Part shown: one piece after another, positions 17,186 through 64,000 of the stretch
Layout of the letters: the number at the start of each line of letters is the position of its first letter
Position numbering within the stretch: position 1 is the first letter of the stretch
Origin: a virus
Strand: one strand, 5' to 3'
IMG/VR virus record: IMGVR_UViG_3300021247_000536
Span: 1 to 64,000 of that record
DNA: 64,000 nt
Notes under the pieces: generated by a model
Told to the model about the DNA's origin: nothing
The model's input: only the letters and a program-made list of their open reading frames with translations
Database searches by the model: none
Translations under genes and position numbers: made by a program

Positions 17186-17203
17186 GTCTATAACTTGATT
17201 TCG

Positions 17204-17236
17204 CAAATTTATTAATTAAATTCTATTACTGCAAAA
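17204..17236 (-). promoter_or_regulatory. Bacteroidota-type promoter for scaffold and capsid
   Basis: On the minus strand a TTTTG element is followed 20 bases later by TAAATTTG (plus coordinates 17204-17211), a match to the Bacteroidota -7 consensus TAnnTTTG. The -33 element lies in an inverted repeat GCAAAA-TTA-TTTTGC (17231-17245). It sits in the only sizeable gap between portal and scaffold. Confidence 0.75.
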
Positions 17237-19450
17237 TTATTTTGCAGTCTTAGGATTGTAGATGCTATTGACTGCAGCCTTAGTTTGAATCTGTTCGAGC
17301 TTGTCAATCTGTTTGTCTTTACGAACGTAGTCTTCATATTGTTGCTGTTGCTGCTGCGCATCTCTCTGCATTTGAACCATTGCTTGAGTCGCTTCGGCCT
17401 GTTGCATAGCTTGCTGTTGCTGCTGCTCTTGCATAGCTCTTCCCATCTCAATCTTATCTTTCGCATACTGACGTATTGCGTTAGCGACTTCTTGTGGTGT
17501 AGCTCTTCCAAATAGGTTGGCAACATATGTATCGTCAAGAAGACCTTGCTGTCTAAGCGCAAGAAGCATTGCATTGCCGGCGTTGACAAGCGCATCATGA
17601 TTTGCATCAAGTCTTACAAATACTCGGAACTCTTCTGCGTTCATCTCTTTTGATAGAGATATCGCTCTTGCTCCGTCGTCACCAACAGATGTTATCAGCT
17701 GAGTCTCGTTGTCAATGTACATTCTCTTTCCTCTTGTAGCTATGGCCTGATATGACTGTAGCATAACTCGTCGGATGGCAGAATATACTGGCTCTTGAAG
17801 TAGTGACCCTTGCTGAATCATTGCCTGTGTTACGCCGACCAATTGCTCTGAGCTTCCTTGCTCACCTTGCATGGCCTCGTTCTGTCCTGTTGTTGTCTGT
17901 ATGATATCCTTCAATGCAGACACCAAGTTGAATAGAGCGTATGTCCCAGACTTAGGCGTTGTGTCGTATGTGCTAACCATGTTCTGAACTCCGCGACCGC
18001 GAAGATCTGCGAACACTGGTCTTCCTTCTTGCATTGCCTGTACTGCGTCTCTCTCTTCGTCTTTTGTTGAGAATGCAGATCTGTCAAGAACAACACCTGC
18101 TCCTCCTGACTGACGAACCTGGCTATCTACAACAGATAGAACTCGGTTGATGAATCGCTGAGGGTTAATTGCATCATCAACAGGAGAATGTATTTCTCCA
18201 TTTATGTATGACCAGCAGCTCATCTTATATGGGAATGGAGATACGTTGAAGTTGTTGATGTCAACTTCCTGATACGGCATCTCCCCGTATTCCAATGGAA
18301 TGTCTGGTATGCTTTTCTTGTTTGTAGGATCTGGAACAGACTGGAATGGAACGTACTTGATGTATCGGATTACATCAGGGAAGATCCTCTTGATCTTCTT
18401 TCCGCCCATTGTCTTCTTAGCCTCTTCTGTCTTTGGTGGATCTACAACATCCTCTTCTGTATATCGAGGAGCATCTTCTCCTGGATATGTGTAGTCAAGT
18501 CTTTTGAGAACTGTATCCCCAAACTCGTTTATTACATAGCCGACTTTGATTGGCTCTGTATCTCTCCAGTATACGTTGATAACAGGAACTCCTGTTCTAA
18601 CAAATCTTCCAATGAATCCGGTAGACTGTCCAGGGAAGTTTCTCTGGTCATACGTTTCAAGAGCTTTCATTTGCTCGAACGTAAGTCCTGGCGTCAATTC
18701 ATATATCTGAGCTGGAGACAAGTATTCTATGTGACCCATATATGCCGCGTCTTGCAGATCATACCTACGGGCATTCCTGTCAAAGAAAAAGTCTTTAGAC
18801 TGTAGGACGTCAAATCGTTGATGTCCTGATTGTAGATAGTTAAATTGTCCGCAAAGTCCTGACAATGCCAGGTGTTCTGCAAGACGGGGCACATTGTTCT
18901 GAAACTCATTCAGCTCAGATACATATTCAAGTAGATCATTAAGACCCTTGACAAAGTTATCTACGTAAACGTTTTCAAATATTTCTTCTGTCTCTGCTTT
19001 CGATGATCCAATAGGATATCGTTTCTTCATGGTCTCCGCAAACTCAGGCATCTTCATGGCAATTTCTGTCATGAAGATCATCTCGCCAAGTTTCTTTTCC
19101 TTGCGAGTTATTGACAATGGAGATACAGATCTAGCTGTTGCTCCAAGCTTCATCGTCTCAGCGTTTCCGCGATATCCCTCTACCAGCTTACGAATCATAT
19201 TCAAAGTTACCTGGATACGATTTCGCGTATCTCCAGTAGCATCCTTCAAGAATATCTCAACATCTTCCGACGTTCTCCACTGATCACCTTGATAGAACAT
19301 CTCGTTGATGAGTGTTCTGTTTAGCCACACTTGGTGTGCAGGGTGATTGTATCCAGCCATGAAAGCAAAACGACCCCATCTGAGATGGTAGTCCATGTCT
19401 TTCTTGTCAATAAGTCGATTTGGCCGTGTGTCTGAAATTGCGAATATCAT
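17237..19450 (-). CDS. Portal protein
   Basis: 737 residues, a typical length for podovirus portals. The N-terminal region (RWGRFAFMAGYNHPAHQVWLNRTLINEMFYQGDQW) and the following NRIQVTLNMIRKLVEGYRGN match the crAss-like portal pattern. The C-terminus is Gln-rich and helical (MQEQQQQQAMQQAEATQAMV), as in barrel-forming portal tails. The portal forms the dodecameric vertex through which DNA is packaged by the terminase two genes upstream. It overlaps the upstream gene by 4 bases (ATGA). Confidence 0.8.
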   Translation of the reverse strand: MIFAISDTRPNRLIDKKDMDYHLRWGRFAFMAGYNHPAHQVWLNRTLINEMFYQGDQWRTSEDVEIFLKDATGDTRNRIQVTLNMIRKLVEGYRGNAETMKLGATARSVSPLSITRKEKKLGEMIFMTEIAMKMPEFAETMKKRYPIGSSKAETEEIFENVYVDNFVKGLNDLLEYVSELNEFQNNVPRLAEHLALSGLCGQFNYLQSGHQRFDVLQSKDFFFDRNARRYDLQDAAYMGHIEYLSPAQIYELTPGLTFEQMKALETYDQRNFPGQSTGFIGRFVRTGVPVINVYWRDTEPIKVGYVINEFGDTVLKRLDYTYPGEDAPRYTEEDVVDPPKTEEAKKTMGGKKIKRIFPDVIRYIKYVPFQSVPDPTNKKSIPDIPLEYGEMPYQEVDINNFNVSPFPYKMSCWSYINGEIHSPVDDAINPQRFINRVLSVVDSQVRQSGGAGVVLDRSAFSTKDEERDAVQAMQEGRPVFADLRGRGVQNMVSTYDTTPKSGTYALFNLVSALKDIIQTTTGQNEAMQGEQGSSEQLVGVTQAMIQQGSLLQEPVYSAIRRVMLQSYQAIATRGKRMYIDNETQLITSVGDDGARAISLSKEMNAEEFRVFVRLDANHDALVNAGNAMLLALRQQGLLDDTYVANLFGRATPQEVANAIRQYAKDKIEMGRAMQEQQQQQAMQQAEATQAMVQMQRDAQQQQQQYEDYVRKDKQIDKLEQIQTKAAVNSIYNPKTAK

Positions 19451-20055
19451 CGTTCACTTGTTTTACTTCTACGTTCAAGAGCGATCTCGTGAGCTGTCTT
19501 ACCAGAAGCAAGATCAACAGACACAGCCGCGTTTATTCCGAAACCTTCTTCTCTGATCTTGATTACCTCTGGAAGTTCTTCGCGAACTTTTTGTATTGCC
19601 GTAACATACGAACTAACTGACGAAGCATCAAACACTTCAACGCCATCTACAGTTTTGTACATTACATTGTTAATATCTATTTTTGATATTGACAGAAGAT
19701 TGTTAAAAATTTGTTCTACCGCTTCGTTTGCTCTTGATCTGTGATCAGGGCTAAAGCGCTGCATCACTTCATTTGCCTGCATTATCTCTGGTGAGAACTG
19801 GCAGTTGTAGTATTTTACTCTTACGCTTTGATCTGCGTTTGGTCCGAATGAATTGTCGAATGCGGCTCTTGCCTTTTCAAAGCGATCTTTTATTCCGGTC
19901 TCTTTGCTATTCAACGGTGATGCTTGGCAGGCGAACCACCACACGAAGTCTCCTTCTGGCTTTGTTAGATCTCTAAACTCAGGCTTTGTTGCAAGCTCTG
20001 GGTATGCATCTACCAGCTTCTTCTTTCTGTCTGGAAAAAATAATGCTTCTTTCAT
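19447..20055 (-). CDS. Conserved-position protein between terminase and portal
   Basis: 202 residues, no recognised family. It overlaps both neighbours by 4 bases, so it is translationally coupled to the large terminase and portal. It has an aromatic segment (EGDFVWWFACQASPLNS) and a helical C-terminal half ending in basic residues. Related phages also have an uncharacterised gene at this position. A head-assembly or packaging role is likely by context only. Confidence 0.5.
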   Translation of the reverse strand: MKEALFFPDRKKKLVDAYPELATKPEFRDLTKPEGDFVWWFACQASPLNSKETGIKDRFEKARAAFDNSFGPNADQSVRVKYYNCQFSPEIMQANEVMQRFSPDHRSRANEAVEQIFNNLLSISKIDINNVMYKTVDGVEVFDASSVSSYVTAIQKVREELPEVIKIREEGFGINAAVSVDLASGKTAHEIALERRSKTSER

Positions 20056-22385
20056 CGTGGTCTTACCGGTATTCTTCTTAATGATCCAGACTCATCTCTG
20101 ACAAGCTTAAACCCTGTAAGGTTCGTGCTGTTCTTTCTTTGTTCAGCGCTTCCTTCCAGTGATTCAGTTATCCTGTGTGAGTAGCAGGAAGCACAAATAT
20201 ATGAATAAGTTAGCGCAAATAAAGCATCATCCCAGTTATATCTTTTATCTTGAGGCTCCCAAGTCTCAGATCGACCTATCATCTTGCAGACAAATGTCTT
20301 TAGCTGGTTGAAGAATATAGGCATCCAGATACGATCTCCGAATGAGTCAAAGATCTGTTTCATGTAGTCAATGATGACTTTGTTTCGAAGTCCTTTGTTA
20401 TCCACTCCAACTATTACACTGCCGGATTTTGATTGTAGTGTCATCGGAAGTTCTGACCCAAGTACAAGTGATCGATCTAGCGCTTTGTTCTCTTTGTATT
20501 CTCGATAGGCTGTTCCGATGTTAGCTTCCACAAGTTCAGGTACTGCAACCTGAGATGGATCTGTATTATAATACAATCCAAGCAATACAGTCTGCAGGTA
20601 TGCGTATCTGTAATTGTTTGATCTGTAGTTCATTAAAGCTACCGGCATTGCGAAGTAAGAGTCCCATATTGCCGAGGCCATCTTGGAGTGTCCGTTGTCT
20701 GAGGCGATTGGGTCAGTGCCTTGGTAGTATCTGTTTGACCACTTTTTCGGATGTAGGAATATTACTGTGGTGGCTCTTTCGTCTCCGAATCTTACTGGTA
20801 TGAAGTTGGCTCCTTTTATTTTGAATGGCACGTCACTGCCCTCGTGTGCTGGGCTGTCAAGATCGTATATTGGTTCGAAGTATCCATAGTCGCACGATAC
20901 CTTTTCTCCTCCTGATGATATCCTATCTAGGTTTGATTGTATGAACTCAAGTGGAGCAAGTGTGTTGCCTCCAGTTAAGAATACATCCTCTAGTGTTATA
21001 GGGAATGATTGATGGAATCTTATTCTAAGCTCTGCGGCCTTTGGTCCTTCTGTGGCGTATGCTTCAGATTTAAGCTGAGCGTATCGCTCCCTTGTCATAC
21101 CTGGTCTCCACCATGTGTTCATGAATAGAGGTATGATTCCTGACTGGTGTCTTCCTTCTTTCCACGCTTCCCAGTGCGACATAAAGATGGCGTGTAGTGC
21201 CACGCCGGCCTTGTCCATGTATCCGCCTGTTCCCCACATCACGATCTGTCGCATTAGCTCCTGCTGTTGTGTACGTGTGTTGTATCCGTACATTGTAGGC
21301 AGCAAGTCACTTAGTAGGTCGTTGAGGTCTGAGATGTTTCCTGTTTCGTCAATGAGTGTTACGGTAGGTGTCGTTGATGCGATCTTTGTTTTACCTGGAC
21401 CCATCACATCTATCGATGAGTTGTTACCCGACGTGTCCCCCTTCTTATCTTTTTTACCAAAGAAGAATTGTAGGATATTGTCGTTTTTAACTACAGGCTT
21501 TAGCCATGCAGGCATCTGACCGTATGGGTATTTGATCTTGTCTTCAGCTGTTACCTTTGCTTTGTTGACGTCTTCTGAGATGTACTTGATACCTACGTTT
21601 CTGTGGAATGCAGCTCTGCACAATGCCCAGAGACAGATTGTTGTCGTGAAGGCTACCTGTCTGGCTTTGGTGATGTCTAGCGAGTATCCGCAATCTAGCA
21701 GGTATAGGATTACTTTGTGACCCTTCGCTGCTTTATAGAACTTCATCCCGTCGACGTTCTCTTCCTTGATCTCTCCGTATTTGTCTAGGGCGTATAGCGA
21801 GTTCTCTGCGCAGCGGTCGTTCTCTTTTACTCTCCACTCCAGTATCTGCTCCTCGTTCATTGAGTCTGGCGTGGTGTCGTCCATCCACATCTGCGCTTGC
21901 TTGCAGTACATGTTGAATGGCTTGTAGTCAATGGAGTTGAAGAATCCGTTTTCTGTGTTTATGGAGTTTATCCACGCAACAAAATCATCCGTATGGACGA
22001 TTTTGCTTTTTGGCTTCCACATGTCCGATGTTATATTTTCGGACCCAGAAAATACGGCATTGCTTGAGATTGATTTCTCAAACAATGCCGGTGTTAGGAA
22101 CTTCTCTTGAAGCTTTTCTTCGGTATAGATTATGGAGATCCTTCGATCTGCAAGTATCGTCTTTTGAGATATTACAGTATCGTTAATGAGGTTTCCAACG
22201 GAGAGTTTTACTTTGTCTCCGTTCTCCGATGTAGCTACCAGATCACCATTGTCTTCCTTGATGAATCCGGATAGCTTGAGCTTCCGGATATTCTCTTCAC
22301 CAATGTTTACCCCGTTACTGTAAAGATCAAATAGCAATTCTAGCTTAGCAACATCGGACTGTTGTATGGTCCGTTTACCAGCCAT
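20052..22385 (-). CDS. Terminase large subunit
   Basis: 777 residues. It is the packaging motor ATPase and headful nuclease. An ATPase core is suggested by DITKARQVAFTTTICLWALC near residue 232 (degenerate Walker A region, as in related terminases), Walker B plus catalytic Glu in VTLIDETGN near 345, and a coupling region with TPTMYGY-type sequence. The nuclease half has IVGVDNKGLRNKVIIDY near 657, with an Asp in the expected RNase-H-like position. Length is longer than many terminases but usual for crAss-like ones. It starts 7 bases after the small-terminase candidate. Confidence 0.85.
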   Translation of the reverse strand: MAGKRTIQQSDVAKLELLFDLYSNGVNIGEENIRKLKLSGFIKEDNGDLVATSENGDKVKLSVGNLINDTVISQKTILADRRISIIYTEEKLQEKFLTPALFEKSISSNAVFSGSENITSDMWKPKSKIVHTDDFVAWINSINTENGFFNSIDYKPFNMYCKQAQMWMDDTTPDSMNEEQILEWRVKENDRCAENSLYALDKYGEIKEENVDGMKFYKAAKGHKVILYLLDCGYSLDITKARQVAFTTTICLWALCRAAFHRNVGIKYISEDVNKAKVTAEDKIKYPYGQMPAWLKPVVKNDNILQFFFGKKDKKGDTSGNNSSIDVMGPGKTKIASTTPTVTLIDETGNISDLNDLLSDLLPTMYGYNTRTQQQELMRQIVMWGTGGYMDKAGVALHAIFMSHWEAWKEGRHQSGIIPLFMNTWWRPGMTRERYAQLKSEAYATEGPKAAELRIRFHQSFPITLEDVFLTGGNTLAPLEFIQSNLDRISSGGEKVSCDYGYFEPIYDLDSPAHEGSDVPFKIKGANFIPVRFGDERATTVIFLHPKKWSNRYYQGTDPIASDNGHSKMASAIWDSYFAMPVALMNYRSNNYRYAYLQTVLLGLYYNTDPSQVAVPELVEANIGTAYREYKENKALDRSLVLGSELPMTLQSKSGSVIVGVDNKGLRNKVIIDYMKQIFDSFGDRIWMPIFFNQLKTFVCKMIGRSETWEPQDKRYNWDDALFALTYSYICASCYSHRITESLEGSAEQRKNSTNLTGFKLVRDESGSLRRIPVRPR

Positions 22386-23655: not shown

Positions 23656-24117
23656 ATGAGACACCGGTCAAAAAGTAATTTCAAAGGGTTCTTTAATGGA
23701 TATCCTTATGCCTTCAATGTTGTTGAAGAAGCTGCGTCAGAGAACAATGCCGAAGATGTTAACGAGGCTGCATGCGAGCAGATCAATACCTTGCTCTACG
23801 AATCCCTGCCTTTTGATCCAGAGGAGTTTGGGTTCAAGCCAAGCTCTGATCAGATGGTGTATACCAATTCTTCTGGAGACACATTCTCGAGATCTAAGAA
23901 GACGTATGGATACTGGAAGTTCTGTATTTTTGAAAAGCCAGAGTCTGAGATGGTGATGTACATTCCCAACATGCTCATCGCTCACATTGTGCTTACATCT
24001 ATCGGTGTGCTAGAGCGTTGTGATCTCAACAAGTCAGACATGTGCCCAAACAATCCTGAAATTTCTGGAGTGTGCGCTGTGTGTGAAAGCGGAAAAAAGT
24101 GTAACTTTGAGCGTTAA
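23656..24117 (+). CDS. Hypothetical protein with C-terminal cysteines
   Basis: 153 residues from ATG at 23656, chosen because it follows an AAAAAACAAAAT leader typical of Bacteroidota starts; an upstream ATG at 23605 lies inside the structured RNA. Residues 15-50 are Glu/Ala/Asn-rich. The C-terminus has five Cys (DMCPNNPEISGVCAVCESGKKC) spaced like a small metal site. It sits 11 bases before the tail-fibre gene and probably belongs to the same virion-related transcript. Confidence 0.65.
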   Translation: MRHRSKSNFKGFFNGYPYAFNVVEEAASENNAEDVNEAACEQINTLLYESLPFDPEEFGFKPSSDQMVYTNSSGDTFSRSKKTYGYWKFCIFEKPESEMVMYIPNMLIAHIVLTSIGVLERCDLNKSDMCPNNPEISGVCAVCESGKKCNFER

Positions 24118-30143: not shown

Positions 30144-31628
30144 ATGTCAGCACTAATCACCCTGTTGCAGGGTCCTGGGTATATGTCCATAGGATATACA
30201 TCCAACGGTTCCACGAACAGCATGTCCATCCTTAAGGAGAACTTCACGTTCAACTACAACAGCTCAACGGCTTCATTCTCAATATATGATGAATCGAAGA
30301 GGGCTCTTGAGTTTACTCTTGCCGACCTTGTCAGCCCTATTGTTGCTTCTGACGATCTTCTTATTGCCTGGCTTCAGTCTTTTATGGCTGACGCTTCCGG
30401 GACATCTACCTCTGCAGCTATGCTATACGATGCCTTTGGTCGTCAGCGTGTTTCTGAGCCGTATACTCTTGGTGACTACAAGCATCTGTACGGGTTGGAT
30501 ACTAACTTCCTGGATGTGACAGCCAACGGCGGCAGTGTAACCTTTCAGCCTAACAAGGCCTGCGCTCGCCTTTCTGTAACAACAGCTTCAGGCTCCTCTG
30601 CAATTCACCAGACCAAGTTCTATCACCAGTACATGCCTGGTAAGAGCCAGCTTATATTCAGCACCTTCAACCTATACAATGCAGTTCCTAACGTAACAAA
30701 GAGAACGGGGTACTTCGACGCCTACAACGGTATCTTCTTTGAGCAGGACGGAACAGGAAAGCTTAAGTTCGTCATCAGGACAGATGTGAGTGGAACACCA
30801 CTGGATTCAGAGTCCGTATCTCAGACCTCATGGAACGTAGATCCTTGTGACGGCTCCGGCCCTTCTGGCTTTCAGATTCAGATAGACCAGACACAGATCA
30901 TGTTCATCGAGATGCAGTGGCTGGGCGTTGGTCGTGTACGTGTAGGATTTGTCCATGACGGTAACTTCGTGGTGGCTCACGAGTTCTTCCATGACAACCA
31001 GCTTCCTACTGTATATATGAGTAACCCTAACCTTCCTGTACGTTGCGAGATCGTGGCTGACGGTGTTACAGATGGGGCATACTTCGACCAGATCTGTTCA
31101 ACTGTCCTTAGCGAAGGCGGCTATGTAGAGTCAGGCCAAGACTGGTCAGCATCTAATGGGTCAACAGTAAGATCCATAGCAGCCGGAGCCACCGTACCTC
31201 TGTTCGCCATCCGACTTACCGGCACCTTCAACACATACCTCAACCGTATGATCGTGAGACTGCAGCAGTTCAGCGCCTTCTCGACAAAGGAGCCACTGAG
31301 CTTCAGCGTGGTAAAGCTCCCGGGCATCGCTCAGCTCACCACAGCATCGGCATGGGTAGACGTAAGCTCAGGCAAATCAGGAGTACAGTACAACACCGGA
31401 GCTACGGCCTACACAGATGGAGAGGTGATATCCACAGGATACGTAGGAGCCTCATCATCAGGCAAGGAGTCAATAACATCAAACTCCAACCCGTCCACTG
31501 CCAAGAAGAACTATATCGTCCAGAACTATGCAAGCACAGACTCTGAGATATATGTCATCGTGGCAACCAACATAGGCACCACCACGACCACAGCAGGCGC
31601 TGCCATGCAGTGGAGGGAGATATACTAA
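30144..31628 (+). CDS. Virion-surface or fibre-like structural protein
   Basis: 494 residues. The motif YDAFGRQRVSEPYTLGDYKHLYG near residue 92-114 (split: YDAFGRQRVSEPYTL, GDYKHLYG) recurs in structural proteins of many environmental tailed phages. The rest is a beta-rich, Ser/Thr/Gly-rich protein without membrane segments, ending in MQWREIY. Codons become more C- and G-ending toward the 3' end. It is likely a head or tail fibre or decoration protein. The operon ends at the terminator near 31654-31686. Confidence 0.65.
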   Translation: MSALITLLQGPGYMSIGYTSNGSTNSMSILKENFTFNYNSSTASFSIYDESKRALEFTLADLVSPIVASDDLLIAWLQSFMADASGTSTSAAMLYDAFGRQRVSEPYTLGDYKHLYGLDTNFLDVTANGGSVTFQPNKACARLSVTTASGSSAIHQTKFYHQYMPGKSQLIFSTFNLYNAVPNVTKRTGYFDAYNGIFFEQDGTGKLKFVIRTDVSGTPLDSESVSQTSWNVDPCDGSGPSGFQIQIDQTQIMFIEMQWLGVGRVRVGFVHDGNFVVAHEFFHDNQLPTVYMSNPNLPVRCEIVADGVTDGAYFDQICSTVLSEGGYVESGQDWSASNGSTVRSIAAGATVPLFAIRLTGTFNTYLNRMIVRLQQFSAFSTKEPLSFSVVKLPGIAQLTTASAWVDVSSGKSGVQYNTGATAYTDGEVISTGYVGASSSGKESITSNSNPSTAKKNYIVQNYASTDSEIYVIVATNIGTTTTTAGAAMQWREIY

Positions 31629-32420: not shown

Positions 32421-32545
32421 GCACAGGAAATCTGCACAGGAAATTTCACATGATCCGAATGCTATTTAACATAATGTAATTTATACAGCGCATCCATCGC
32501 GACAGGAATATGCACAGGCAAGCGCATGACAGGACGCAGGAAAAC
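32421..32545. other. Candidate replication origin: iterons around an AT-rich core
   Basis: Two exact GCACAGGAAAT units at 32421-32431 and 32434-32444 (13-base period) are followed by an AT-rich stretch (GCTATTTAACATAATG at 32461-32476, then TAATTTATACA). Four more related units follow: GACAGGAAT at 32501, GCACAGGCAA at 32512, GACAGGACG at 32528 and GCAGGAAAAC at 32536. ATCGCGA precedes each repeat group. Iterons next to an AT-rich unwinding region are the usual form of initiator-dependent origins. Function is inferred. Confidence 0.55.
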
Positions 32546-53464: not shown

Positions 53465-53800
53465 TTATGGTGTTACTGATTGAATCTGAAATGTTCCTGT
53501 AGGAGTAGTAACCTGAAGCCCTGCAGCAAGGATTGTTCCGTACTCTGTAGCGGTAACAACACCTGTAAGCAACGCCTTGTTCCATGCGCATGCTGTTTCC
53601 TGAAGGATGTTGAGAGCTTCGTTAGAAGTTCCTGACACTCCATTGTCTGACAAATAAACATTGCCAGCGTCGTCCTTGTATGACAACAGGTTCCCGTTTG
53701 TTGTGTCGAAGAAATATGTCACGTATCCTGCAGCCGGAGTAGCGATACTAGCTGGAGCAGATACTGTGATAGTGTTTGTGTTTAAGATAGGAGTTGCCAT
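53465..53800 (-). CDS. Small structural protein candidate
   Basis: 111 residues, Thr/Ala/Val-rich and beta-type (NTNTITVSAPASIATPAAGY). It resembles head-fibre or tail accessory proteins in composition. Spacing to the neighbours is 4-6 bases. No family recognised. Confidence 0.5.
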   Translation of the reverse strand: MATPILNTNTITVSAPASIATPAAGYVTYFFDTTNGNLLSYKDDAGNVYLSDNGVSGTSNEALNILQETACAWNKALLTGVVTATEYGTILAAGLQVTTPTGTFQIQSVTP

Positions 53801-53806
53801 GTCTTA

Positions 53807-54112
53807 TTATGCAGTTAAGAGTAAGTAATCGGAAGGAGTTACGAAGCCCATGAAGACGCCGGCATTGACCCAACGAACATATCCAGCAGGAGGAGGACAT
53901 ACGTTAAGCATATATCCTTCTGCATCGTTAGGAGTAAGGCACCCTACAATTTTGTTTGTTGATGGATCTCGAACTTCTACAAGTCCAGGAGCGCAACATC
54001 CACATTTATTTTCCTCGCACCCACATCCATTGTCATGAGAATGAGTCTCTGTTGTATTGCACCCACAGTCTGAGCTGTATAGGTTTTGGTTTGACCAAGC
54101 AGTGAAAGCCAT
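53807..54112 (-). CDS. Cysteine-rich fibre-associated protein
   Basis: 101 residues. Seven Cys lie in residues 16-40 as CxC pairs (DCGCN, NGCGCEE, KCGCCAPG), with two His between them (THSHD). The rest is a beta-type domain (VRWVNAGVFMGFVTPSDYLL). This looks like a metal-binding or disulphide-forming tag on a small structural domain. One-base overlap with the upstream gene. Confidence 0.55.
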   Translation of the reverse strand: MAFTAWSNQNLYSSDCGCNTTETHSHDNGCGCEENKCGCCAPGLVEVRDPSTNKIVGCLTPNDAEGYMLNVCPPPAGYVRWVNAGVFMGFVTPSDYLLLTA

Positions 54113-54297
54113 TATAATTGCTTTTTAAGATTTGAAACAAGGATCTTTACCAATTCACCATCCTGAATAGCAAACATGTACGCACTCTCGCTAAGAGATG
54201 TAAGTGTACGAACACTTGCGATATCAGTCATCATTGGAGGTACGCAATTATTATTGGTACACTCATTGCATTTTCCGTTACATTTTCCGTTACACAT
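54112..54297 (-). CDS. Short protein with N-terminal cysteine repeat
   Basis: 61 residues. The N-terminus MCNGKCNGKCNECTNNNC has Cys at 2, 6, 10, 13 and 18, with CNGK repeated. The remainder is helical (TLTSLSESAYMFAIQDGELV). It lies between two other cysteine-tagged proteins. Function unknown. Confidence 0.55.
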   Translation of the reverse strand: MCNGKCNGKCNECTNNNCVPPMMTDIASVRTLTSLSESAYMFAIQDGELVKILVSNLKKQL

Positions 54298-54300
54298 ATC

Positions 54301-54675
54301 TTAAGCGCAGTTACATGAACACCCTCCGCAAATTACGGATATCTGTTCAAAGATTTTATTTACTTCTTCCTCTGTTACGCAGTTAATGCAATCAGGCTCA
54401 ACAAATATGGACCTGTTTGCACCAGACAAATATAACGCTTTTCCGTTTAATGAAAGGAATGATCCTGAATATTTAATATACCCAGTGTGATCTACGCATA
54501 CCCACGGCTCGGCATTGTAACGCTCCAAGGTGTTTAGGTAAGCGTCCAGTAACATTAGAGTGTTAAACATTTGATCAGTAGCTTCTCCGTGCGACATTGC
54601 CACGACGTACTTGTTAGAGTATGCGAGGGCGCAGCACTGAGCCTTACTAAGTCTTTCTTTGAAACACTCTACCAT
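54301..54675 (-). CDS. Protein with C-terminal cysteine cluster
   Basis: 124 residues, with helical N-terminal part containing CC (KAQCCALAYSN), a beta-type middle and a C-terminal tag ICGGCSCNCA (Cys at 116, 119, 121 and 123). Other Cys occur near the tag (DCINCVT). It is co-transcribed with the collar-domain fibre protein. Confidence 0.55.
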   Translation of the reverse strand: MVECFKERLSKAQCCALAYSNKYVVAMSHGEATDQMFNTLMLLDAYLNTLERYNAEPWVCVDHTGYIKYSGSFLSLNGKALYLSGANRSIFVEPDCINCVTEEEVNKIFEQISVICGGCSCNCA

Positions 54676-54676
54676 G

Positions 54677-55480
54677 TTATGCTACTTTCATTATGTACAT
54701 CAAGCTGTAATAAGGAGGACGATTCTCGTGAGCTCCACCTAAACCTGCGTCACCTAGAGTTATTCCTGTAGTAGCAGAAGATGCAGATGTGATGCCAGTA
54801 GTATTTGTCTGAGCAGACACTCCTGTATATGCTGGATCTACTGACACTGCCGGTGTTGCTGAGTCTGTAGTTAACTCGTGAGAGTGATCTCCAGCGTCAG
54901 CCATTCCGTCTGAGTCATTAACCTGAATGCCTGTTGCAGCATCAAGGAATGTTCCGTTGTTATCTGATGTCACCCATGAGTTACCAGCTCCACTCAATGG
55001 AACGTGGTGGTGATCACCTGTTGTATTTGTAGTTCCAGTATGACTGTGAGCTACCTGTGAAGCAGCATGTGTATGACCCGAGTCAGTAACAGGGTGCGTA
55101 TGTCCAGGATCTGTAATAGGGTGAATGTGTCCAGGATCTGTAACCGTGTGCGTGTGCACAGGGATCTCAGATGCAATCAGGGTATGAGTATTCTCTCCCC
55201 CTATGTCATTGACGTTGTAAGACAATCCTGATCCAACGACAAACTTATCACGGAGGTCAGGTGTTGTTATTCCGCTATGGACGTTACCGTCACATGCAGC
55301 CCACTTAACCCATACGCCAGTACCATTACCGTTAGAGTCAAAAGCATTTAGGTCGTCAGGATTTTGGATCATGACAATAGGATGCCCATCGATAATAGGA
55401 GCGAGGTCAAGCATAACCTGATTCAAGGTATCCTGAATCTGAGCTATCTGTGTAGTGCAATTGCAGCAGTTTCCACTCAT
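54677..55480 (-). CDS. Tail-collar fibre protein with His-rich repeats
   Basis: 267 residues. The N-terminus has a cysteine tag (MSGNCCNCTT). The region GVWVKWAACDG and TPDLRDKFVVG is typical of phage tail-collar domains. Residues about 105-150 repeat a TDPGHTHP unit (HTHTVTDPGHIHPITDPGHT), giving HxH pairs that bind iron in T4-type fibre tips. The C-terminus ends with ENRPPYYSLMYIMK, the usual end of collar fibres. It likely forms a trimeric spike or short fibre. Confidence 0.75.
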   Translation of the reverse strand: MSGNCCNCTTQIAQIQDTLNQVMLDLAPIIDGHPIVMIQNPDDLNAFDSNGNGTGVWVKWAACDGNVHSGITTPDLRDKFVVGSGLSYNVNDIGGENTHTLIASEIPVHTHTVTDPGHIHPITDPGHTHPVTDSGHTHAASQVAHSHTGTTNTTGDHHHVPLSGAGNSWVTSDNNGTFLDAATGIQVNDSDGMADAGDHSHELTTDSATPAVSVDPAYTGVSAQTNTTGITSASSATTGITLGDAGLGGAHENRPPYYSLMYIMKVA

Positions 55481-55481
55481 G

Positions 55482-55994
55482 TTAGTTGAATGTTATTGTT
55501 AATGAAGATATTGCAACCTCTATTGCAACACCACGATTCTCTCCTCTTACCTGAATTTCAAGTACGGCTGGAGATGTACTTGGAATCTGTATAGTGACAT
55601 TAAGGTTGTCGATGTTAGTATCAAGAGCAGATGATATTCCTGTGGCTGCAGCTATTGTCTGAGAGTTGGTGACGTCATATACTCGAACATCAAATGTACC
55701 TACTCCGCTAGGCCCCCAGATGTTTGCCAACATAGATGAAAACATTCCAGTACCAAGAGCTGTCCCTGGCCAAGTAAATCTTGCCACTCCAACAAATGTA
55801 ATTGAAGACTCAATCTTATATGTGTTAGTATCGCCATGAATAGGAATAGTTATCCAGTTCTGAGCACTGTCTCCAGCAGGACCAACAGGTCCAGTAGGGC
55901 CAGCAACTCCACGATCTCCTTTAGGCCCTTGTTCACCACGTATGGTTTTTGGGCAACAGCTAGTGCACGATTTTTTTCCGCAAGATTTACACAT
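55482..55994 (-). CDS. Collagen-like fibre protein with N-terminal cysteine tag
   Basis: 170 residues from ATG at 55994. The N-terminus MCKSCGKKSCTSCCPK carries five Cys. Residues about 20-42 are a collagen-type Gly-x-y stretch (GEQGPKGDRGVAGPTGPVGP), and a beta-rich C-terminal domain follows. Collagen-like trimer segments are frequent in phage fibres. An upstream ATG at 56015 would overlap the preceding gene and is less likely. Confidence 0.7.
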   Translation of the reverse strand: MCKSCGKKSCTSCCPKTIRGEQGPKGDRGVAGPTGPVGPAGDSAQNWITIPIHGDTNTYKIESSITFVGVARFTWPGTALGTGMFSSMLANIWGPSGVGTFDVRVYDVTNSQTIAAATGISSALDTNIDNLNVTIQIPSTSPAVLEIQVRGENRGVAIEVAISSLTITFN

Positions 55995-56002
55995 GATCTT
56001 TA

Positions 56003-56578
56003 TCAGCAAGCACACCTGCAGTTAAGCCGCAAGTATGTTATGATGTTGTCGGCGCTAACCATATCGTCGCAACAGATAGCCCTTTTTACCCTGTTCAAAA
56101 GAGCGCTCATCTCTGCAGTCTTGCGGCTCTTATCCTCACGGAATACATCGTCAAACTTAACGTTGTATGTCTTGGCTGTCATCTTATCAACACAGCATTC
56201 AACTTCTTTGATGAACACTGCCGAAGCTGTGGCACTAAACTTGAACGTCAATCCCGCCTGAGCATGACCCGTAGGGTACGTACCCTCCATCTCTACTCGC
56301 ACAGTCCACTTGCCAGACACAATACCATTGGCATTGACATCCCACGGCATGATCTGAAACTCAGACCCATCTCCAGGAAACTGAGAACCTAGATCTTTTA
56401 CGATCTCGTATAGGTTTACAGGAGATTTGATATACGCTACGCATGATGTTACATACGAAGGAAGTATATTCAACGGACCATATCCATACGGATACTCAAA
56501 CGTATAGTTTCCGGTGACGTCTTTGATCACGAATGATCCAACACGTTCTTCTAATTCTATTTTGGATACTAATGACAT
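56003..56578 (-). CDS. Structural protein with C-terminal CxCxC tag
   Basis: 191 residues, beta-rich (GSFVIKDVTGNYTFEYPYGY), with internal CC pairs (VECCVD, ICCDD) and a terminal NCRCAC (Cys 187, 189 and 191). It is the first fibre gene after the giant protein gene and probably part of the virion surface or fibre base. No recognised family. Confidence 0.6.
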   Translation of the reverse strand: MSLVSKIELEERVGSFVIKDVTGNYTFEYPYGYGPLNILPSYVTSCVAYIKSPVNLYEIVKDLGSQFPGDGSEFQIMPWDVNANGIVSGKWTVRVEMEGTYPTGHAQAGLTFKFSATASAVFIKEVECCVDKMTAKTYNVKFDDVFREDKSRKTAEMSALLNRVKRAICCDDMVSADNIITYLRLNCRCAC

Positions 56579-56632: not shown

Positions 56633-59600
56633 TTAGAACTTACCAGGCGCCGAACCTGATACACCAGACTGTATTTTAAGGAGTCTAGGGGTATCCATTA
56701 TGAATTGAGTCTTTGAAATCTTGGCAGCCTCAGAGTAGAGCCTATCTAGCTTTTCAGCTCTATCCTCTATGCTGTCGTTATTCCAATCGTCGCTTCCTAC
56801 ATAGTGAGATACCATCTCCTTACGCTTAGTGCCTACCAAGATCTGATATTGCTCGTACTCAGCTCCTGTGAGCATGACATCCTGCTTTGCTACAGTAATC
56901 TTCTGATCCGGCTTTGAAGGAATCATCTTGTTGCGGACATCAGACATGGACTTAGGGGTATCAAAATACATCTGCTGAATCTTGAATCCAACTGTCTCTG
57001 TGTCAGGACTATAAGACTGAACAGGATCGAACATGTAGTAAACCCAAGGGTTGGTGCCGGCAGGGGTAGAAGATACCTTCTCTCCCCATAGGGTGATCTT
57101 GCTAGGTAGTTCATCGGCTGTCCCCATGATGCCAAGGTCTACACGAAGTCTGTTAAGGACCATGTCGCTAAGTTCTGTATCCTTACCTTCTGTTCTTGTC
57201 TCCTTGGTAAAGTCCATGCTCGCCTTACTTACGGATGATACAGTGTTTGGTATGAATATTTTTGACAGCGCTACTACGGTGTTAGTCTCAAACTTCTTAA
57301 CCTTGTTTCCTTGCTCATCTCTAATTGCATCGATAACCCCGGCTATACCAGTCATGAACGATTGGTCAACCATAGCTTTGATGTTTGTAGAGGTGATGCC
57401 ACCAAGTCCGCCTAGGCTCATCAACTCATCTATTCCATTGTCAATCTGGGTATCGTCTTTGTCTCTGTAGAAGTCAGCCCATGAAGATAGCGCAAGACCC
57501 ATAGTTCCCATCTTTGAGTAGTTGATGGTGAAGTCTCCCTTTCGGAACTCGGCCCAGTTATTATCTCCAGATCCCATTCTGAACAATGCCGACAAGTTGA
57601 GTGATCTTGCGCGTACATTCTCATACTGCATAGACTTTGCATCGTACTTCATCTCATCCTCATCTCCAGTCATCAAACCGTTTTTGATAAGGTTTGCAGC
57701 GAGCATAGCTACACCCATAGCAACTGTAGCTCTTGAGAAGTATCTTATTGATTCTTCTTTATAATAAGCTGCCTTGAGTTGATTTCCAGCCTTCTCTTCC
57801 TTGACAGACTTAGCGGCAAATCCTGCAGAGTATGCAATTCCGAAAGCTGGATTAGTAAACTGGAATGTCTCAGTTAGCAAGTTTACAGGAGTTTTTGTAA
57901 ACGGAATCACTGTACCTATAAGCAGGTTAGCAAATCCAGAGATATGTCTACCCACTGCACCTTGTGAAAATTCAGCCATCTTTTTAGCGATGTCCGCCTG
58001 AGATCTATTCACAAGATCGGACATAATATTCTTCTGCTGGTATGTCATTTTCTCAGCATATTCATCGGCAATTGCGGCAGCGTCAGCAGGAGGATTAAAT
58101 ATAAATTCTAGCTTCTCGGCATTGTTCATATTGCGCAAAGAGCCATCTTTATTTTTTACATATGTTTGCTCAGCCAACGACACTAGCTTGCTTGATTTCG
58201 ATATCTCAAAAGGAATCTTATCACCTATAGCAAGTAGTCTTGACATAGCATCTGCTGGCATACCGAATGTAGCCTCAATGAATGCTGAGATTTTATTCTC
58301 TACATTGTTCAGTTCTACAGGAGACTTCTTTGAGAACAAATCTCTCCATGCCTGGAACGCATTCATAGAGTGACGCATGTTATACTTCTCTACGTCTTCG
58401 GATGTAGATCCGTACTTGATCTTTCGAAGCCCTTCGCTAACGCCATAAGCAGCACCATATTTTATTCCTCCGAATATATCAAAGAATCCTTTAGAGTACC
58501 CAAGTGTAGATATAAACCCTTTGTATGGAATTGGCTTAGATTCTTTTCCAGAAACGTATCTTACAGCTTTCATTGCCAGTGCTGCCGACCAATGGATAGG
58601 CGAAGATATAGATACAACAGCACCTCTAAGAACAATGGCTGGAAGGTATCCAAATACGTTGACAAGAATTGTTTGAGGGGTAAGCATGTTGAGCTTCATG
58701 ATAGAAGCCAACGACTGCCACACATCTCTTCCTTCTCTCATCTGCCTTCCGAGTCTTTCTCCTTCAAGTCTAGCTTTGAAGTCAGCATCTCTAACTGCAT
58801 TGGCAGCATCTTCCGCTCTCTTTTCGTACTTGTCGACAACAGCTTTATATGCCGGAGACCCCTCTTGTAATCCAGAAAGAGCTGCCTTGTATTCATCTAT
58901 GATCTTGGTGAATGCCTTCTCCTTCTCTCCCATATCCTTGATTGCAGATGTGTGAGAAAGGATAGCATCCTTCATCTTGTCATTCATCTGAAGACCAGAG
59001 TAGTAAGACGTAAGCGCCTCTTCAAGATTCTTCTTGTTTATTTGACCATTGGCATTGATAGCATTCGACAGATGCCCGTCGATACTTGTCTTGAATTTAT
59101 CATCAAGCTTGGCATAGCCAGGCATAAGGTTATCCATGATGGACTTCTTAGCGTCTGCAGCATTGCCGGTCTTGGAAGCGTTGATGATAGCCTTCTTGAT
59201 CTTTCTTTGCGTTCTATTTGCCTTGATAAATTTCTGAGACTTCATCTTAACCTGAGCGTCAACAAACAGCTCAAGACCTTTAGGACTCATAGCTACAATC
59301 TGCTTCATTCGCTTGCTGGCGATAGAGACGGACTTAGCATATTGCCCGTTGATGGTAGAGAAAGATATGGCCGTACTAGCAGCTCTGTCTGCTGCAGCTT
59401 TCTTCGCTTGATCAGAAACATTCGGATCGTTTGCTATAGAGTCAGAATACTTAACTCGCTTGTCAAAGATCTCTGCAAGGATGAGGGCACGAGTGTGAGG
59501 CATCACATCAGGAGACTTGGATACATCTGTCATATTAGCCTCAAGAATATCCATTGCCCCTTCTGCTTCGAAGTAATCGACGATAGCTTGTGCGTCAGAA

Positions 59601-62600
59601 ACACTTGCAGCAATAGTGTCAGGGATGTATGTTATCCCTTGCGCATTCAGAGAGTCTTTAACTTCAGTAGATACTAGATTGCTTCCAGCTATACGCTCGA
59701 GAGTCTTACTTGCCTTTGGACTAGCAGTCTTATTTTTTAAGGCATTAGCCTGAATAAGCTTTGCAATCTCAGCGTCAAGCATTGCCTCGAACTCTCCCTC
59801 TGAGATAACATTGTTGGCAATGTTATTCTTAATCGTAGGGTGATTCATCAGAGCCGACTTGAAGTTACCAAGGGCAACAGCTAGATCAACTCCTTTGTCA
59901 ACAGCTTTCTTGATAGCGTCTGTGGCAAAGTTTACTGTAGCTTCAACATCAAAGATGCTAGACTTAGAGATCTTTATTTTCTCTCCAGTCTCAGGGTTAG
60001 TAACGTACTGTCCTTCTGGATTGAAAAGAAACTTAGAAACTGCGTCTCTGATCTTGTCAATAGATTCTTTGATAGATGTTTTAGATGCAGCAACCTTCTC
60101 ATCGTATGATTTAATTGCATCGTCAACAACCTTCTTGGCTGTAGCGTCGGAGATTAGCCCATCCTCTACAGCTTTGATAACCTGATCTTTCAGCTGAGAG
60201 ATCTTAGAAGGTCCATTGATTATAGATGATGACTTAGCTTCTTCTGCTGTTGTATTGATAGCAGATAGAGTATCGGCATCATCCTGTACTTTAGCGTCAG
60301 CTCTTTCTGAGATAGCTTTGTCTACAGAACTCTTAGCGTATTCAGTTGACTTGGTATCTACTGCTGATTGAGCCACGTATGATGAGTCAACTTTTGTATC
60401 AAGATCAAGCCCAACCTTGAATCCCATTACATTGCCGTCTTCGGTTCTGATAGCCGAAACGTAGTTGGCTTCAGGATTAGATGGATCTTCATTGAATGAA
60501 TCTTCTTTAACAACACGAGGATTCATTGTACCATCCTGATAAACCATTCCCTCGTTAGTTACAACGCTATCCTGGTTGAATGTTTTAGTAAACTCTACAG
60601 CGTCAGAAACTGTAAGGCCAGGAACAAAGAAGCTATTCTCTGTCTGTCCGTACTTACCTGTCACTGGAGCTATCTCGTATCCGCGAGACTCTAGCCACTT
60701 AACAGCTTTCCCGTTTAGCTTTGAGTTTGCTGACGAAACAGTAGGAGTACCCATAGGGTTCTCACCGGTAATGATACCGAAGTTCTCCTCTTTAATGATA
60801 CGCTCAATCTCATCCTTGTCAAAGTCTGACTTAGACATCTTGGCAACAGCATTGTCGAAGAATGATTTCTTAGATCTCTTCTCGCGTAAAGCTTCTTGAG
60901 CATCAACTGAAAGTTCGGTATACTTAACTCCTGCAACTTCCATTCGTTTGCCCATAGACATCTGCCCAGTCTTAGATACCATGTTGGTAATCTTCTTAGG
61001 CATGCCCTTCATGAGAGTCTTCATCTCTTGCTCTGTAGGTACCTTGTTGTACATGTACATGTCACGAGCAATCTCATAAGCATCATCGTATCTACCCTTC
61101 TCAGAAAGGTAATCATAAGCTGCTTCTCCTATTGCTTCGTATTGAGCAGACTCTTTGTATTGAGACTCTTCCGGATGAGCTATGCGCTCCATGCCAGACT
61201 CTTCGTTTGAAGTGAAGTCTGATGCTGACTCATTGGTAGGCTTCAATGGAACAAGGGCGTCAGCTCTGAACTCAGGCATGTCAGTCTTCTTTCCTGTGCG
61301 GCTGTAATACCATTCGCCAACAGCCATCTGGTATCCATCCTTAGCGGCAAGATCAGCCATCTTCTTCTTGATAACCTCAGCTCTGTATGGAGTGTTCTGA
61401 GGTACGGTCTTTTCTACTTGCGCCTTGTATCCTTTTGGATCTGTATCCATAGGATACACTTTATCTTTTGATACACGGACAACATACTTATCTCCTCCAA
61501 CCATACGCTCTCCATCTGTTGGCTTTGTGTAGAATGAAGCTACCCCATACTGAGTTCCCTTCTCTGACTTAGATGTGCGAGTAGAGTAGAAATTACGACT
61601 GTCTATTCCCTTGCGGACAGACTTCTCATCAGCACTTGATACGTGGAAGAATACATAGTCATTGCCGTCTTCGGTGAGTCCAGATTGAACGTATGTATCG
61701 GCAACAACATCCATGCGCTTACCGCGAGACTCTTGCATTGATGACACCCGCTCAGGCAGAAGACCTATCTTCTGCTCTGCGAATGGCCTATCTTTCATAG
61801 GGACAGACTTGATGGAACCATCTTCGTTTCTCATGTGAGGACCGAAGTTAACCCAAGAGTTTTGACCTCTTGTCTCTGTGGTCATAGCTCTTGCAGCTAA
61901 TGGGCTGTACATACGAACGTGAACATCCCATGCGTTTTCTTCTCCGATAGGACCAAAAGAGTTACCCCTTTCGCCATGGCCGAATGCATCGTGAACAAAA
62001 CGGAACACGTCATTAGTCAACAAGCTTTTGCCGTTGATGTCTTTACGTCCGCTGTCCTTTAACAATGGGTTGTCGTTACGCTGCTTATCTGTTATCTTGT
62101 TTTGTCCAAAGTCTTTTTCAGTAGACAATACAAATAAATGCTTGTTGTTTCTTAAATCGTCAAGCATCTCTTGACTGTTGGCGTATGGCTCTCCCTTTCC
62201 TTCATATATCTCTACAGCGTACCCTGCCTTAGTAAGCTCATCGAACTGATCAATAGTCTCAGTTGCCATAGCCTGATAAGCCGCCTTCACTTGAGGATCG
62301 TCTGGCGTATTCTGCATCTGTTCAAATGCGTCAGCTCTACGCTTTGCCTCTTCTACGTCTACTGTAGTTATCTTTTCTCCTGGGCCTGTTGTTATGCCAT
62401 TGCGGTCCTTATATGACTTAGATACATTGGCAATGTCTTCTACCGGCTCAGAGAACAATCTCCTTCCGCGAGACTCTTGGCCCTTTTTCCCATATGCCAA
62501 TCCCTTAACGCCTTCAGATAAATTACCTCCATAGTAAATACTTCCAGCAGACATCTGAGAAGCTTTGGTATCATACAATTTACCAGATGGGCCAACTATA

Positions 62601-64000
62601 GTATTTGGATTAAACAATTCATCTATAAGATATCCTCCATCCAAGTTGAAAGGATTCTTTCCAGGGAACTTAGCATTGAATAATGGATGCTTAACTCCTT
62701 TGTCCTGTATTGCATTTGCGTCAGAGTTAGGGTCATTTTCAAATCCGTTGATAGCTACACCCCACAATCCTTCACTCATGTATAAGTCCGCGATCTGCTT
62801 AATACCTACCTCATTAAAGATCTTCTCGGCATTAATTCCAAATTGATCATAAAGAGCTTTTGCTATAAACTTGTTTGGATTTTTTGAAATATATCCAGCC
62901 TGACCCTCCATCCCTTTCCTACTTGACTTGCGCGCTATTCCTGCAATTAGGTTTTCATTAATAGCACGTCTTGCCTTGAATGAAGCCGGAGCGTTCCCGC
63001 CTAAGTTGTAAGCTAAATCCTCTATCATCTGATCGATAATTTCTTTCGATGATAGATCTGCTGCTTTGTATTTATTTACAAAGTCATTGTACTTCTTTTC
63101 TCCAATAGCTTTTTTAAGAGACGCAATATCTTTACCGAAAAACTCCGACTTAAATTTGCTTGAGGATCGAATAGACTTTGGAAGCTGAGATATTCCATCG
63201 AGGATATATCTTAATGAGTAAGAGTTGCCAAGCAAACTTACAGGGGCTTGAACTCCAACAAGAGTAACCCCGTCCTGTCCTTTATACAAATCTTTTATTA
63301 ATCCAGAATGCGAATTAACTTTACCAATGAGTGTACTAGCGAATCCAACTCCGTTGTCTACATTTTCTTTTATAGACATGTATCCTGGTCCGCCATACAT
63401 AAATATCTTTTCTCCTGAAGGAAGAGTTAAGTTGCCCACCCTTGTAGGATCAGAGTTTATAATCGTAACCTTATCTTCGAACTGATCAAGAACATCTTCA
63501 AGTGATCTAGTCGGAAGCTTTACAGTTTCCTTTTCTTCATATACAGATTCAACAGGAGATGTTATAACCCTCGCCTGTCCAACTTTTTTTCTATCTATTG
63601 AACCAGCTATAATATCAGATCCAGGAATATCTGTTTCAAGATCATAATTTATAGTATCCTCAAACTTCTTCACGTTCTCAGCACCAACAACTTCAGACAT
63701 ATCTCTTCCAGACTTAAGTACATCAGAGACTGCTTTGGCTTTGTTGATCAAAGTCTGCGTGTCGGTATCATTCATTACAGTGCCGAGGCCTAGCTTTGTT
63801 GCAACGGAATTGATGAAGTTAATTACATTCTGCTTGAAAGATTTTGGCAACGCATCAAGATCAATCACTCCAGATCCAACTCGACCTATAAACTCAGCCA
63901 CAGATTCATCGTCAACACCTTCCTGTCCACCCTTTTTACGGTACGCTTCAGCAAACTTAATAGTGTCATCTATCTGAATCTTATTATCACCCTTAGCATT
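56633..64000 (-). CDS. Giant polyvalent virion protein, 5' end outside window
   Basis: At least 2455 residues; the frame stays open to the window edge, so the true start is beyond 64000 (a GTG at 63901 is internal). Visible parts, numbered from that GTG: a globular region about 145-250; a domain near 635-690 with RFVHDAFGHGERGNSFGP, GEENAWDVHVRMYSPLA and ETRGQNSWVNFGP; an ADP-ribosyltransferase-like segment near 745-880 (FFHVSSAD, FYSTRTSKS); a module near 1050-1160; long helical regions; and a membrane-active C-terminal part (ILVNVFGYLPAIVLRGAVVS near 1740; LIGTVIPFTKTPVNLL near 1990) resembling LPD38-type polyvalent proteins. Probably ejected with DNA. No RNA polymerase motif seen. Confidence 0.7.
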   Translation of the reverse strand, partial: NAKGDNKIQIDDTIKFAEAYRKKGGQEGVDDESVAEFIGRVGSGVIDLDALPKSFKQNVINFINSVATKLGLGTVMNDTDTQTLINKAKAVSDVLKSGRDMSEVVGAENVKKFEDTINYDLETDIPGSDIIAGSIDRKKVGQARVITSPVESVYEEKETVKLPTRSLEDVLDQFEDKVTIINSDPTRVGNLTLPSGEKIFMYGGPGYMSIKENVDNGVGFASTLIGKVNSHSGLIKDLYKGQDGVTLVGVQAPVSLLGNSYSLRYILDGISQLPKSIRSSSKFKSEFFGKDIASLKKAIGEKKYNDFVNKYKAADLSSKEIIDQMIEDLAYNLGGNAPASFKARRAINENLIAGIARKSSRKGMEGQAGYISKNPNKFIAKALYDQFGINAEKIFNEVGIKQIADLYMSEGLWGVAINGFENDPNSDANAIQDKGVKHPLFNAKFPGKNPFNLDGGYLIDELFNPNTIVGPSGKLYDTKASQMSAGSIYYGGNLSEGVKGLAYGKKGQESRGRRLFSEPVEDIANVSKSYKDRNGITTGPGEKITTVDVEEAKRRADAFEQMQNTPDDPQVKAAYQAMATETIDQFDELTKAGYAVEIYEGKGEPYANSQEMLDDLRNNKHLFVLSTEKDFGQNKITDKQRNDNPLLKDSGRKDINGKSLLTNDVFRFVHDAFGHGERGNSFGPIGEENAWDVHVRMYSPLAARAMTTETRGQNSWVNFGPHMRNEDGSIKSVPMKDRPFAEQKIGLLPERVSSMQESRGKRMDVVADTYVQSGLTEDGNDYVFFHVSSADEKSVRKGIDSRNFYSTRTSKSEKGTQYGVASFYTKPTDGERMVGGDKYVVRVSKDKVYPMDTDPKGYKAQVEKTVPQNTPYRAEVIKKKMADLAAKDGYQMAVGEWYYSRTGKKTDMPEFRADALVPLKPTNESASDFTSNEESGMERIAHPEESQYKESAQYEAIGEAAYDYLSEKGRYDDAYEIARDMYMYNKVPTEQEMKTLMKGMPKKITNMVSKTGQMSMGKRMEVAGVKYTELSVDAQEALREKRSKKSFFDNAVAKMSKSDFDKDEIERIIKEENFGIITGENPMGTPTVSSANSKLNGKAVKWLESRGYEIAPVTGKYGQTENSFFVPGLTVSDAVEFTKTFNQDSVVTNEGMVYQDGTMNPRVVKEDSFNEDPSNPEANYVSAIRTEDGNVMGFKVGLDLDTKVDSSYVAQSAVDTKSTEYAKSSVDKAISERADAKVQDDADTLSAINTTAEEAKSSSIINGPSKISQLKDQVIKAVEDGLISDATAKKVVDDAIKSYDEKVAASKTSIKESIDKIRDAVSKFLFNPEGQYVTNPETGEKIKISKSSIFDVEATVNFATDAIKKAVDKGVDLAVALGNFKSALMNHPTIKNNIANNVISEGEFEAMLDAEIAKLIQANALKNKTASPKASKTLERIAGSNLVSTEVKDSLNAQGITYIPDTIAASVSDAQAIVDYFEAEGAMDILEANMTDVSKSPDVMPHTRALILAEIFDKRVKYSDSIANDPNVSDQAKKAAADRAASTAISFSTINGQYAKSVSIASKRMKQIVAMSPKGLELFVDAQVKMKSQKFIKANRTQRKIKKAIINASKTGNAADAKKSIMDNLMPGYAKLDDKFKTSIDGHLSNAINANGQINKKNLEEALTSYYSGLQMNDKMKDAILSHTSAIKDMGEKEKAFTKIIDEYKAALSGLQEGSPAYKAVVDKYEKRAEDAANAVRDADFKARLEGERLGRQMREGRDVWQSLASIMKLNMLTPQTILVNVFGYLPAIVLRGAVVSISSPIHWSAALAMKAVRYVSGKESKPIPYKGFISTLGYSKGFFDIFGGIKYGAAYGVSEGLRKIKYGSTSEDVEKYNMRHSMNAFQAWRDLFSKKSPVELNNVENKISAFIEATFGMPADAMSRLLAIGDKIPFEISKSSKLVSLAEQTYVKNKDGSLRNMNNAEKLEFIFNPPADAAAIADEYAEKMTYQQKNIMSDLVNRSQADIAKKMAEFSQGAVGRHISGFANLLIGTVIPFTKTPVNLLTETFQFTNPAFGIAYSAGFAAKSVKEEKAGNQLKAAYYKEESIRYFSRATVAMGVAMLAANLIKNGLMTGDEDEMKYDAKSMQYENVRARSLNLSALFRMGSGDNNWAEFRKGDFTINYSKMGTMGLALSSWADFYRDKDDTQIDNGIDELMSLGGLGGITSTNIKAMVDQSFMTGIAGVIDAIRDEQGNKVKKFETNTVVALSKIFIPNTVSSVSKASMDFTKETRTEGKDTELSDMVLNRLRVDLGIMGTADELPSKITLWGEKVSSTPAGTNPWVYYMFDPVQSYSPDTETVGFKIQQMYFDTPKSMSDVRNKMIPSKPDQKITVAKQDVMLTGAEYEQYQILVGTKRKEMVSHYVGSDDWNNDSIEDRAEKLDRLYSEAAKISKTQFIMDTPRLLKIQSGVSGSAPGKF

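Follow-up and report, generated by a model that had tools for sequence, protein, structure and literature searches.

Among described phage tails, that of the human gut Bacteroides phage phicrAss001 (Crassvirales) offers the nearest structural parallel to the locus examined here. Its barrel is ringed by twelve hubs, each built of two A chains and one B chain; the hubs accept residues 1–26 of the trimeric fiber gp22, and disulfides between the hub proteins and to ring proteins have been seen by cryo-EM (PMC10172136). Conserved cysteines in a tail protein outside the capsid are also found in gpL of phage lambda and gp13 of RcGTA, which are tail-tip iron–sulfur proteins (PMC10721106), and to this extent the two resemble the proteins described below. 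However, in lambda and RcGTA a single protein holds the [4Fe-4S] site in a siphovirus-type tail tip, and its cysteines are arranged otherwise than in the operon proteins, whose matches included neither a sequence nor a fold of the gpL type, with its four spaced cysteines. We analyzed a window of 64,000 nucleotides (positions 1–64000 of a 64,634-base virus record), in which a preliminary description had reported terminal cysteine clusters on six consecutive fiber-operon proteins and read them as a shared docking code.

Cysteine-rich genes of the fiber operon

The run lies on the minus strand and is preceded by a giant Cys-free virion-type protein (56633..63901, minus strand; 2,380–2,422 aa) with a DUF3293 segment. 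Flavobacterium elemo phages share this segment (44% over 190 aa); many Mycobacterium phages match the giant protein by tblastn. The first gene of the run (56003..56578) encodes a predicted hub-like protein of 191 aa, composed of an N-terminal β-sandwich and a C-terminal helical hairpin and ending in CRCAC. It is followed by a 170-aa collagen-like fiber (55482..55994) with cysteines at residues 2, 5, 10, 13, and 14, immediately ahead of a Gly-X-Y repeat that is short in the window and longer in most relatives; the Pfam match is below the curated cutoff. We place its start at the ATG at 55994, where the collagen-like proteins of several relatives also start (MCK...); a longer GTG ORF reaching to 56015 uses a nonconserved start. 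The protein is like the collagen-like tail fibers of other phages in combining a Gly-X-Y repeat and a globular domain at the C terminus and unlike them in its conserved three to six N-terminal cysteines right before the repeat.

The 267-aa tail-collar fiber (54677..55480) begins with C5, C6, and C8 (CC-x-C), continues with a heptad-like helix, and goes on to a collar domain with HxH repeats. The collar domain is that of HxH collar-type fibers of the T4 gp37/gp12 kind, matching PHROG 8469 at 7e-31 and the long tail fiber 8kec_A at 4.7e-16, with Pfam Gp10_C reached only below the curated cutoff. The cysteine cluster, by contrast, precedes the helix and lies outside the part common to such fibers. 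A link from the HxH repeats to the clusters and to metal at the host surface had been suggested. These repeats are common in collar and tail-fiber proteins of other phages (PMC11705849) and, as an ordinary feature, are uninformative on the clusters; this metal reading was set aside as unrelated to them.

The remaining genes are small. A Cys-rich helical protein of 124 aa, of no known family (54301..54675), has four cysteines in its last nine residues (CGGCSCNCA); a 61-aa miniprotein (54112..54297) has cysteines at residues 2, 6, 10, 13, and 18; and a 101-aa Cys-rich protein (53807..54112) combines C16, C18, C30, C32, C37, C39, and C40 with a GCLTPNDAE motif. A 111-aa protein (53465..53800) is the seventh member of the set, and the CCxC that most of its relatives keep is absent from the window copy. 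Scans of PHROGs, Pfam, and the PDB gave no supported sequence match for the 191-, 124-, and 101-aa families, and the PHROG matches that did arise fall on Ig-like extensions of single members; the NCBIfam model WING-49 was matched by 4 of 13 members of the 101-aa family. In some phages, proteins of the 101- and 111-aa families have gained C-terminal extensions with Ig-like (Big_2) or SprB-like repeats (L117 7001–7588, L121 4661–5293, and L132 8611–9429), which suggests surface-exposed adhesin roles.

On recheck, all six ORFs and their cysteine counts proved correct, and each cluster lies where it had been located. In the proteome of the window genome, 1.0% of residues are cysteine; if this frequency is assumed, the chance of six genes all having at least three cysteines in 15 residues is ∼1e-12. 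Besides the six, only six ORFs of at least 50 aa reach this density, and the one at 32446 is unlikely to be a gene. The statement that the other virion genes are without such clusters also held: the virion genes at 60–22385 and 56633–63775, both on the minus strand, have zero to two cysteines in any 15 residues, and the 2,380-aa neighbor has none. Shuffling each protein separately qualified the description of the clusters as terminal tags on six proteins. Clustering per se was significant only for the collagen-like and collar proteins and, in terms of terminal position, for the 61-aa protein. In the proteins at 54301 (10 cysteines; P = 0.41), 56003 (8; P = 0.46), and 53807 (9; P = 0.08, a weak tendency), it was not significant, and the cysteines are spread through the domain. 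Only the first three of these proteins therefore merit the label "tag"; the other three are Cys-rich domains.

Elsewhere in the window, a 153-aa protein with a Cys-rich C terminus (CDLNKSDMCPNNPEISGVCAVCESGKKC; 23656–24117) adjoins a 639-aa fiber-like gene and has no PHROG match. A 494-aa protein (30144–31628), encoded on the strand opposite to the main virion genes, has a match at 1e-103 to PHROG 1645, a virion structural protein.

Conservation of the operon and its cysteines

The same operon is present in 12 further phage contigs, giving 13 with the window, one of them partial (L119). Two of these, IMG/VR contigs L033/G001 and L035/G002, were the first to be reached, through an alignment of the primase, and ten more came from searches with the 101-aa family. 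One contig sits in a Kordia MAG, and the phages bearing the operon are uncultured tailed viruses, probably of flavobacteria. Gene order is identical everywhere: the giant protein (in the relatives, too, long and almost free of cysteine), the 191-aa family, collagens and/or collar, the 124-aa family, in some operons a small protein of 47–71 aa, and then the 101- and 111-aa families. The slot between the 191- and 124-aa families holds one to three collagens and/or one Cys-tagged collar fiber; three operons (L114, L121, and L132) lack the collar and have extra collagen-like genes, most of them with N-terminal cysteines.

When the 191-aa family was used in a separate search, every genome with this gene also had the rest of the operon. 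Single-protein searches of IMG/VR with the 191-aa, portal, and collar proteins gave no confirmed relative, nor was one obtained when a phage collection was searched by tblastn with the 191-, 170-, and 101-aa proteins. Flavobacterium phage elemoA and MW202828, the latter from a spring, have a comparable syntenic layout and no such operon, and none was present in the stretches examined of 22 contigs that have the DUF3293 segment in common. The cysteine tags are therefore not a general requirement of this phage type. In MW202828 (L005), a 1,551-aa structural protein at 16998–21653 has 27 cysteines, five of them within residues 1476–1490, and the C terminus FSNCNCP; here a C-terminal cluster sits on a virion protein of another kind.

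The families of the relatives are 16–57% identical to the window proteins, and the best-kept residues of the core families are cysteines. Invariant or nearly so are C128, C129, C187, and C189 in the 191-aa family (12 sequences), C15, C99, C116, and C119 in the 124-aa family (12 sequences), and C18, C37, C39, C40, and C58 in the 101-aa family (13 sequences). Across these three families, window cysteines are matched in 60–77% of relatives, compared with 25–35% for other residues. The fibers behave differently: their clusters remain N-terminal, but the number and spacing of the cysteines drift. Collagen-like fibers have three to six N-terminal cysteines in all 12 operons that cover the gene, and collar fibers, present in nine operons, have one to six in the first 20 residues, with a single one in L117.

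Homologous operons with the domains but no cysteines, the outcome that was to speak against the docking idea, were thus mostly not encountered: the core set keeps its cysteines, and the 61- and 111-aa genes lose their clusters in some operons. The cluster of the 61-aa gene, counted earlier among the shared features, is absent from two of three relatives, since the five N-terminal cysteines of the window become four in L131 and none in the 47-aa homologs of L118 and L130. In the 111-aa family, 10 of 13 members have CCxC or CxC, which is lost in L119, L121, and the window, whose copy at 53465–53800 is a natural loss variant of the motif; relatives also carry a later cysteine and, often, an Ig-like (Big_2) or SprB repeat. 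Because the window copy had lost its CCxC, the initial set of six genes missed this seventh.

Predicted fold of the 191-aa protein

We modeled the 191-aa protein with AF2 from 12 sequences (pLDDT 81.5) and compared the model with the PDB. Nearly full-length matches were obtained to 7qoj_G/H and 7qol_W (probability 0.98–1.00, E ∼3e-3 to 1.4e-2), with a moderate TM score of 0.43–0.49 over 198–213 aligned columns. These chains belong to the tail barrel of phicrAss001 (PDB 7QOJ/7QOL/8CKB), and the sequence of 7qoj_G is that of tail hub protein A (gp38). Most other top PDB matches cover the β-sandwich only, where many Ig/FN3 domains compete. A search of BFVD gave a 206-aa protein of the crAss-like phage cr111_1 (TM 0.44–0.47), which has the length of the cr111_1 gp38 homolog, as well as podovirus proteins with E down to 1e-7.

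The predicted likeness extends to the cysteines. All 11 crassvirus hub A proteins keep one cysteine close to where the hairpin starts and, at the C terminus, a CxC (C163, C211, and C213), and by-eye comparison puts them in the same places as the invariant cysteines of the 191-aa family, at the hairpin start and in the terminal CxC. Both proteins are also Cys-rich, with 11 cysteines in gp38 and 8 in the 191-aa protein. In sequence, however, comparison of the hub protein A profile with that of the 191-aa family in three ways gave no match above shuffled controls: the hhalign probability was 0.3%, and HMM scores were within the shuffled range. Homology by sequence was therefore dropped, and we base the likeness on the fold. 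Because the profiles fail to confirm homology, we predict that the 191-aa protein works like hub protein A and do not claim that it belongs to the same family.

Like gp38, the 191-aa protein would belong to a podovirus fiber-attachment apparatus. The two systems differ in other respects. The 191-aa gene adjoins fiber genes, and the gp38 gene of phicrAss001 lies between auxiliary capsid and ring genes. A hub protein B partner is recognizable in phicrAss001 (gp39) but not beside the 191-aa gene; the 124-aa protein was considered for this role and rejected, as its model (pLDDT 85.4) had no PDB fold match and there was no profile match to gp39. Finally, the window-type fibers carry cysteine clusters, and the N terminus of gp22 has no cysteine. 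The 61-aa protein weakly resembles the N-terminal part of gp22, as though the docking domain of a fiber had become a free protein; the best of 2,000 shuffles scored about as high.

Proposed fiber docking and possible chemistry of the joints

The best explanation, which we hold with roughly even confidence, is a thiol-jointed docking hub with plugged-in fibers, joined mainly by disulfides, in a podovirus-like phage. We infer the docking, the binding partners, and the joint chemistry as follows. The whole run would be one transcriptional block for the fiber-docking apparatus. The 191-aa protein would be a docking-hub subunit acting as crAss001 tail hub protein A does, the 124- and 101-aa Cys-rich proteins would be additional hub or adaptor subunits, and the collagen-like and collar fibers would be trimers plugged in by their N termini. 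The joints would be made by conserved cysteines of the hub/adaptor proteins and the N-terminal clusters of the trimeric fibers, which presumably face each other and form disulfides. Hub–hub and fiber–hub cross-linking, chiefly by disulfides, may occur after assembly or upon meeting oxidizing surroundings. Drift of the fiber tags in number and spacing would be expected if alternative disulfides, or a metal–thiolate cluster, suffice. Since the gp22 N terminus lacks cysteine, thiol joints from fiber to hub have no precedent in crAss001. Also counting against the explanation are the drift of the fiber tags, the loss of clusters from some members, and the virions that the syntenic phages elemoA and MW202828 build with no such operon. 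The shared docking code first proposed is supported in part: cysteines are the best-kept residues in 12 further operons and one member has a predicted hub fold, but three of the six members carry Cys-rich domains rather than terminal tags.

Disulfides are the more likely joint chemistry by analogy with the crAss001 hubs, which are stabilized by them (PMC10172136); this precedent weighs against metal, as does the lack of any match to a metal-binding family in Pfam, NCBIfam, or PHROGs. Metal nevertheless stays a serious rival, because virion assembly starts in the reducing cytoplasm and because of the CC, CxC, and CxxC spacings. Zn2+ or another soft metal, held in Cys4 or metallothionein-like polynuclear sites formed in that cytoplasm, would nucleate the fiber trimers and hold the fibers to the hub. 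This is possible, if on the unlikely side: the 191-, 124-, and 101-aa families each have four or five invariant cysteines, which would suit such sites, and a polynuclear cluster able to adapt would accommodate the loose number and spacing of the fiber tags more readily than a single fixed disulfide pattern. HxH collar fibers bear metal in T4 gp37, as cited in PMC11705849. An iron–sulfur cluster in the hub/adaptor proteins, as in gpL and gp13, would likewise use the four invariant cysteines of each protein and has the [4Fe-4S] precedent of phage tail tips (PMC10721106). It appears improbable, given that adjacent CC and terminal CxCxC are atypical for [4Fe-4S], that clusters also sit on probably flexible fiber termini, and that neither gpL nor any Fe-S family turned up as similar in the scans made.

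The cysteines could instead stabilize each protein on its own, through intrachain or intratrimer disulfides (cystine-knot-like, as in collagens), and join nothing. Those just ahead of Gly-X-Y in the collagen-like fibers do resemble trimer-registering knots. The cysteine pattern also differs from family to family and is kept within each, and some members lose single clusters while others persist. We doubt this reading rather strongly, as it leaves unexplained why six to seven adjacent unrelated genes share cysteines when the other virion genes are almost free of them. That the proteins are not virion components at all, but intracellular Cys-rich (zinc-finger-like) regulators or chaperones merely beside the fiber genes, is scarcely credible: although neither the 124-aa nor the 101-aa family matches a virion family on its own, family members carry collar and collagen domains and Ig-like and SprB repeats, the 191-aa protein has a hub-like predicted fold, and the set is strictly colocated downstream of a giant virion-type protein.

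A further-reaching version of the thiol-jointed hub is speculative and, in our judgment, unlikely to hold in full. In a family of environmental phages, six to seven unrelated proteins would share a thiol code, with polynuclear metal–thiolate sites of mixed protein origin or redox-switchable disulfides; fibers would be interchangeable plug-ins on one hub; and the joint might be released or tightened at the host surface, depending on redox state or metal there.

As far as we searched the open literature, we found no description of a cysteine signature shared across adjacent fiber genes. Disulfide-stabilized hubs are already known; the Cys-tagged fibers and the Cys-rich adaptor set are, to our knowledge, new. 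The analysis brings to light protein families (191, 124, and 101 aa) absent from PHROGs and Pfam and bears on how podoviruses of Bacteroidota exchange fibers of unrelated fold on one tail. If the thiol-jointed hub is right, a conserved set of Cys-bearing hub/adaptor proteins with fast-changing Cys-tagged fibers would constitute a simple general plug, and phages could take up fibers of whatever fold once these gained a short cysteine cluster at the N terminus. Disulfide-stabilized docking hubs would then extend from crassviruses of the gut to phages that are uncultured and probably infect flavobacteria.
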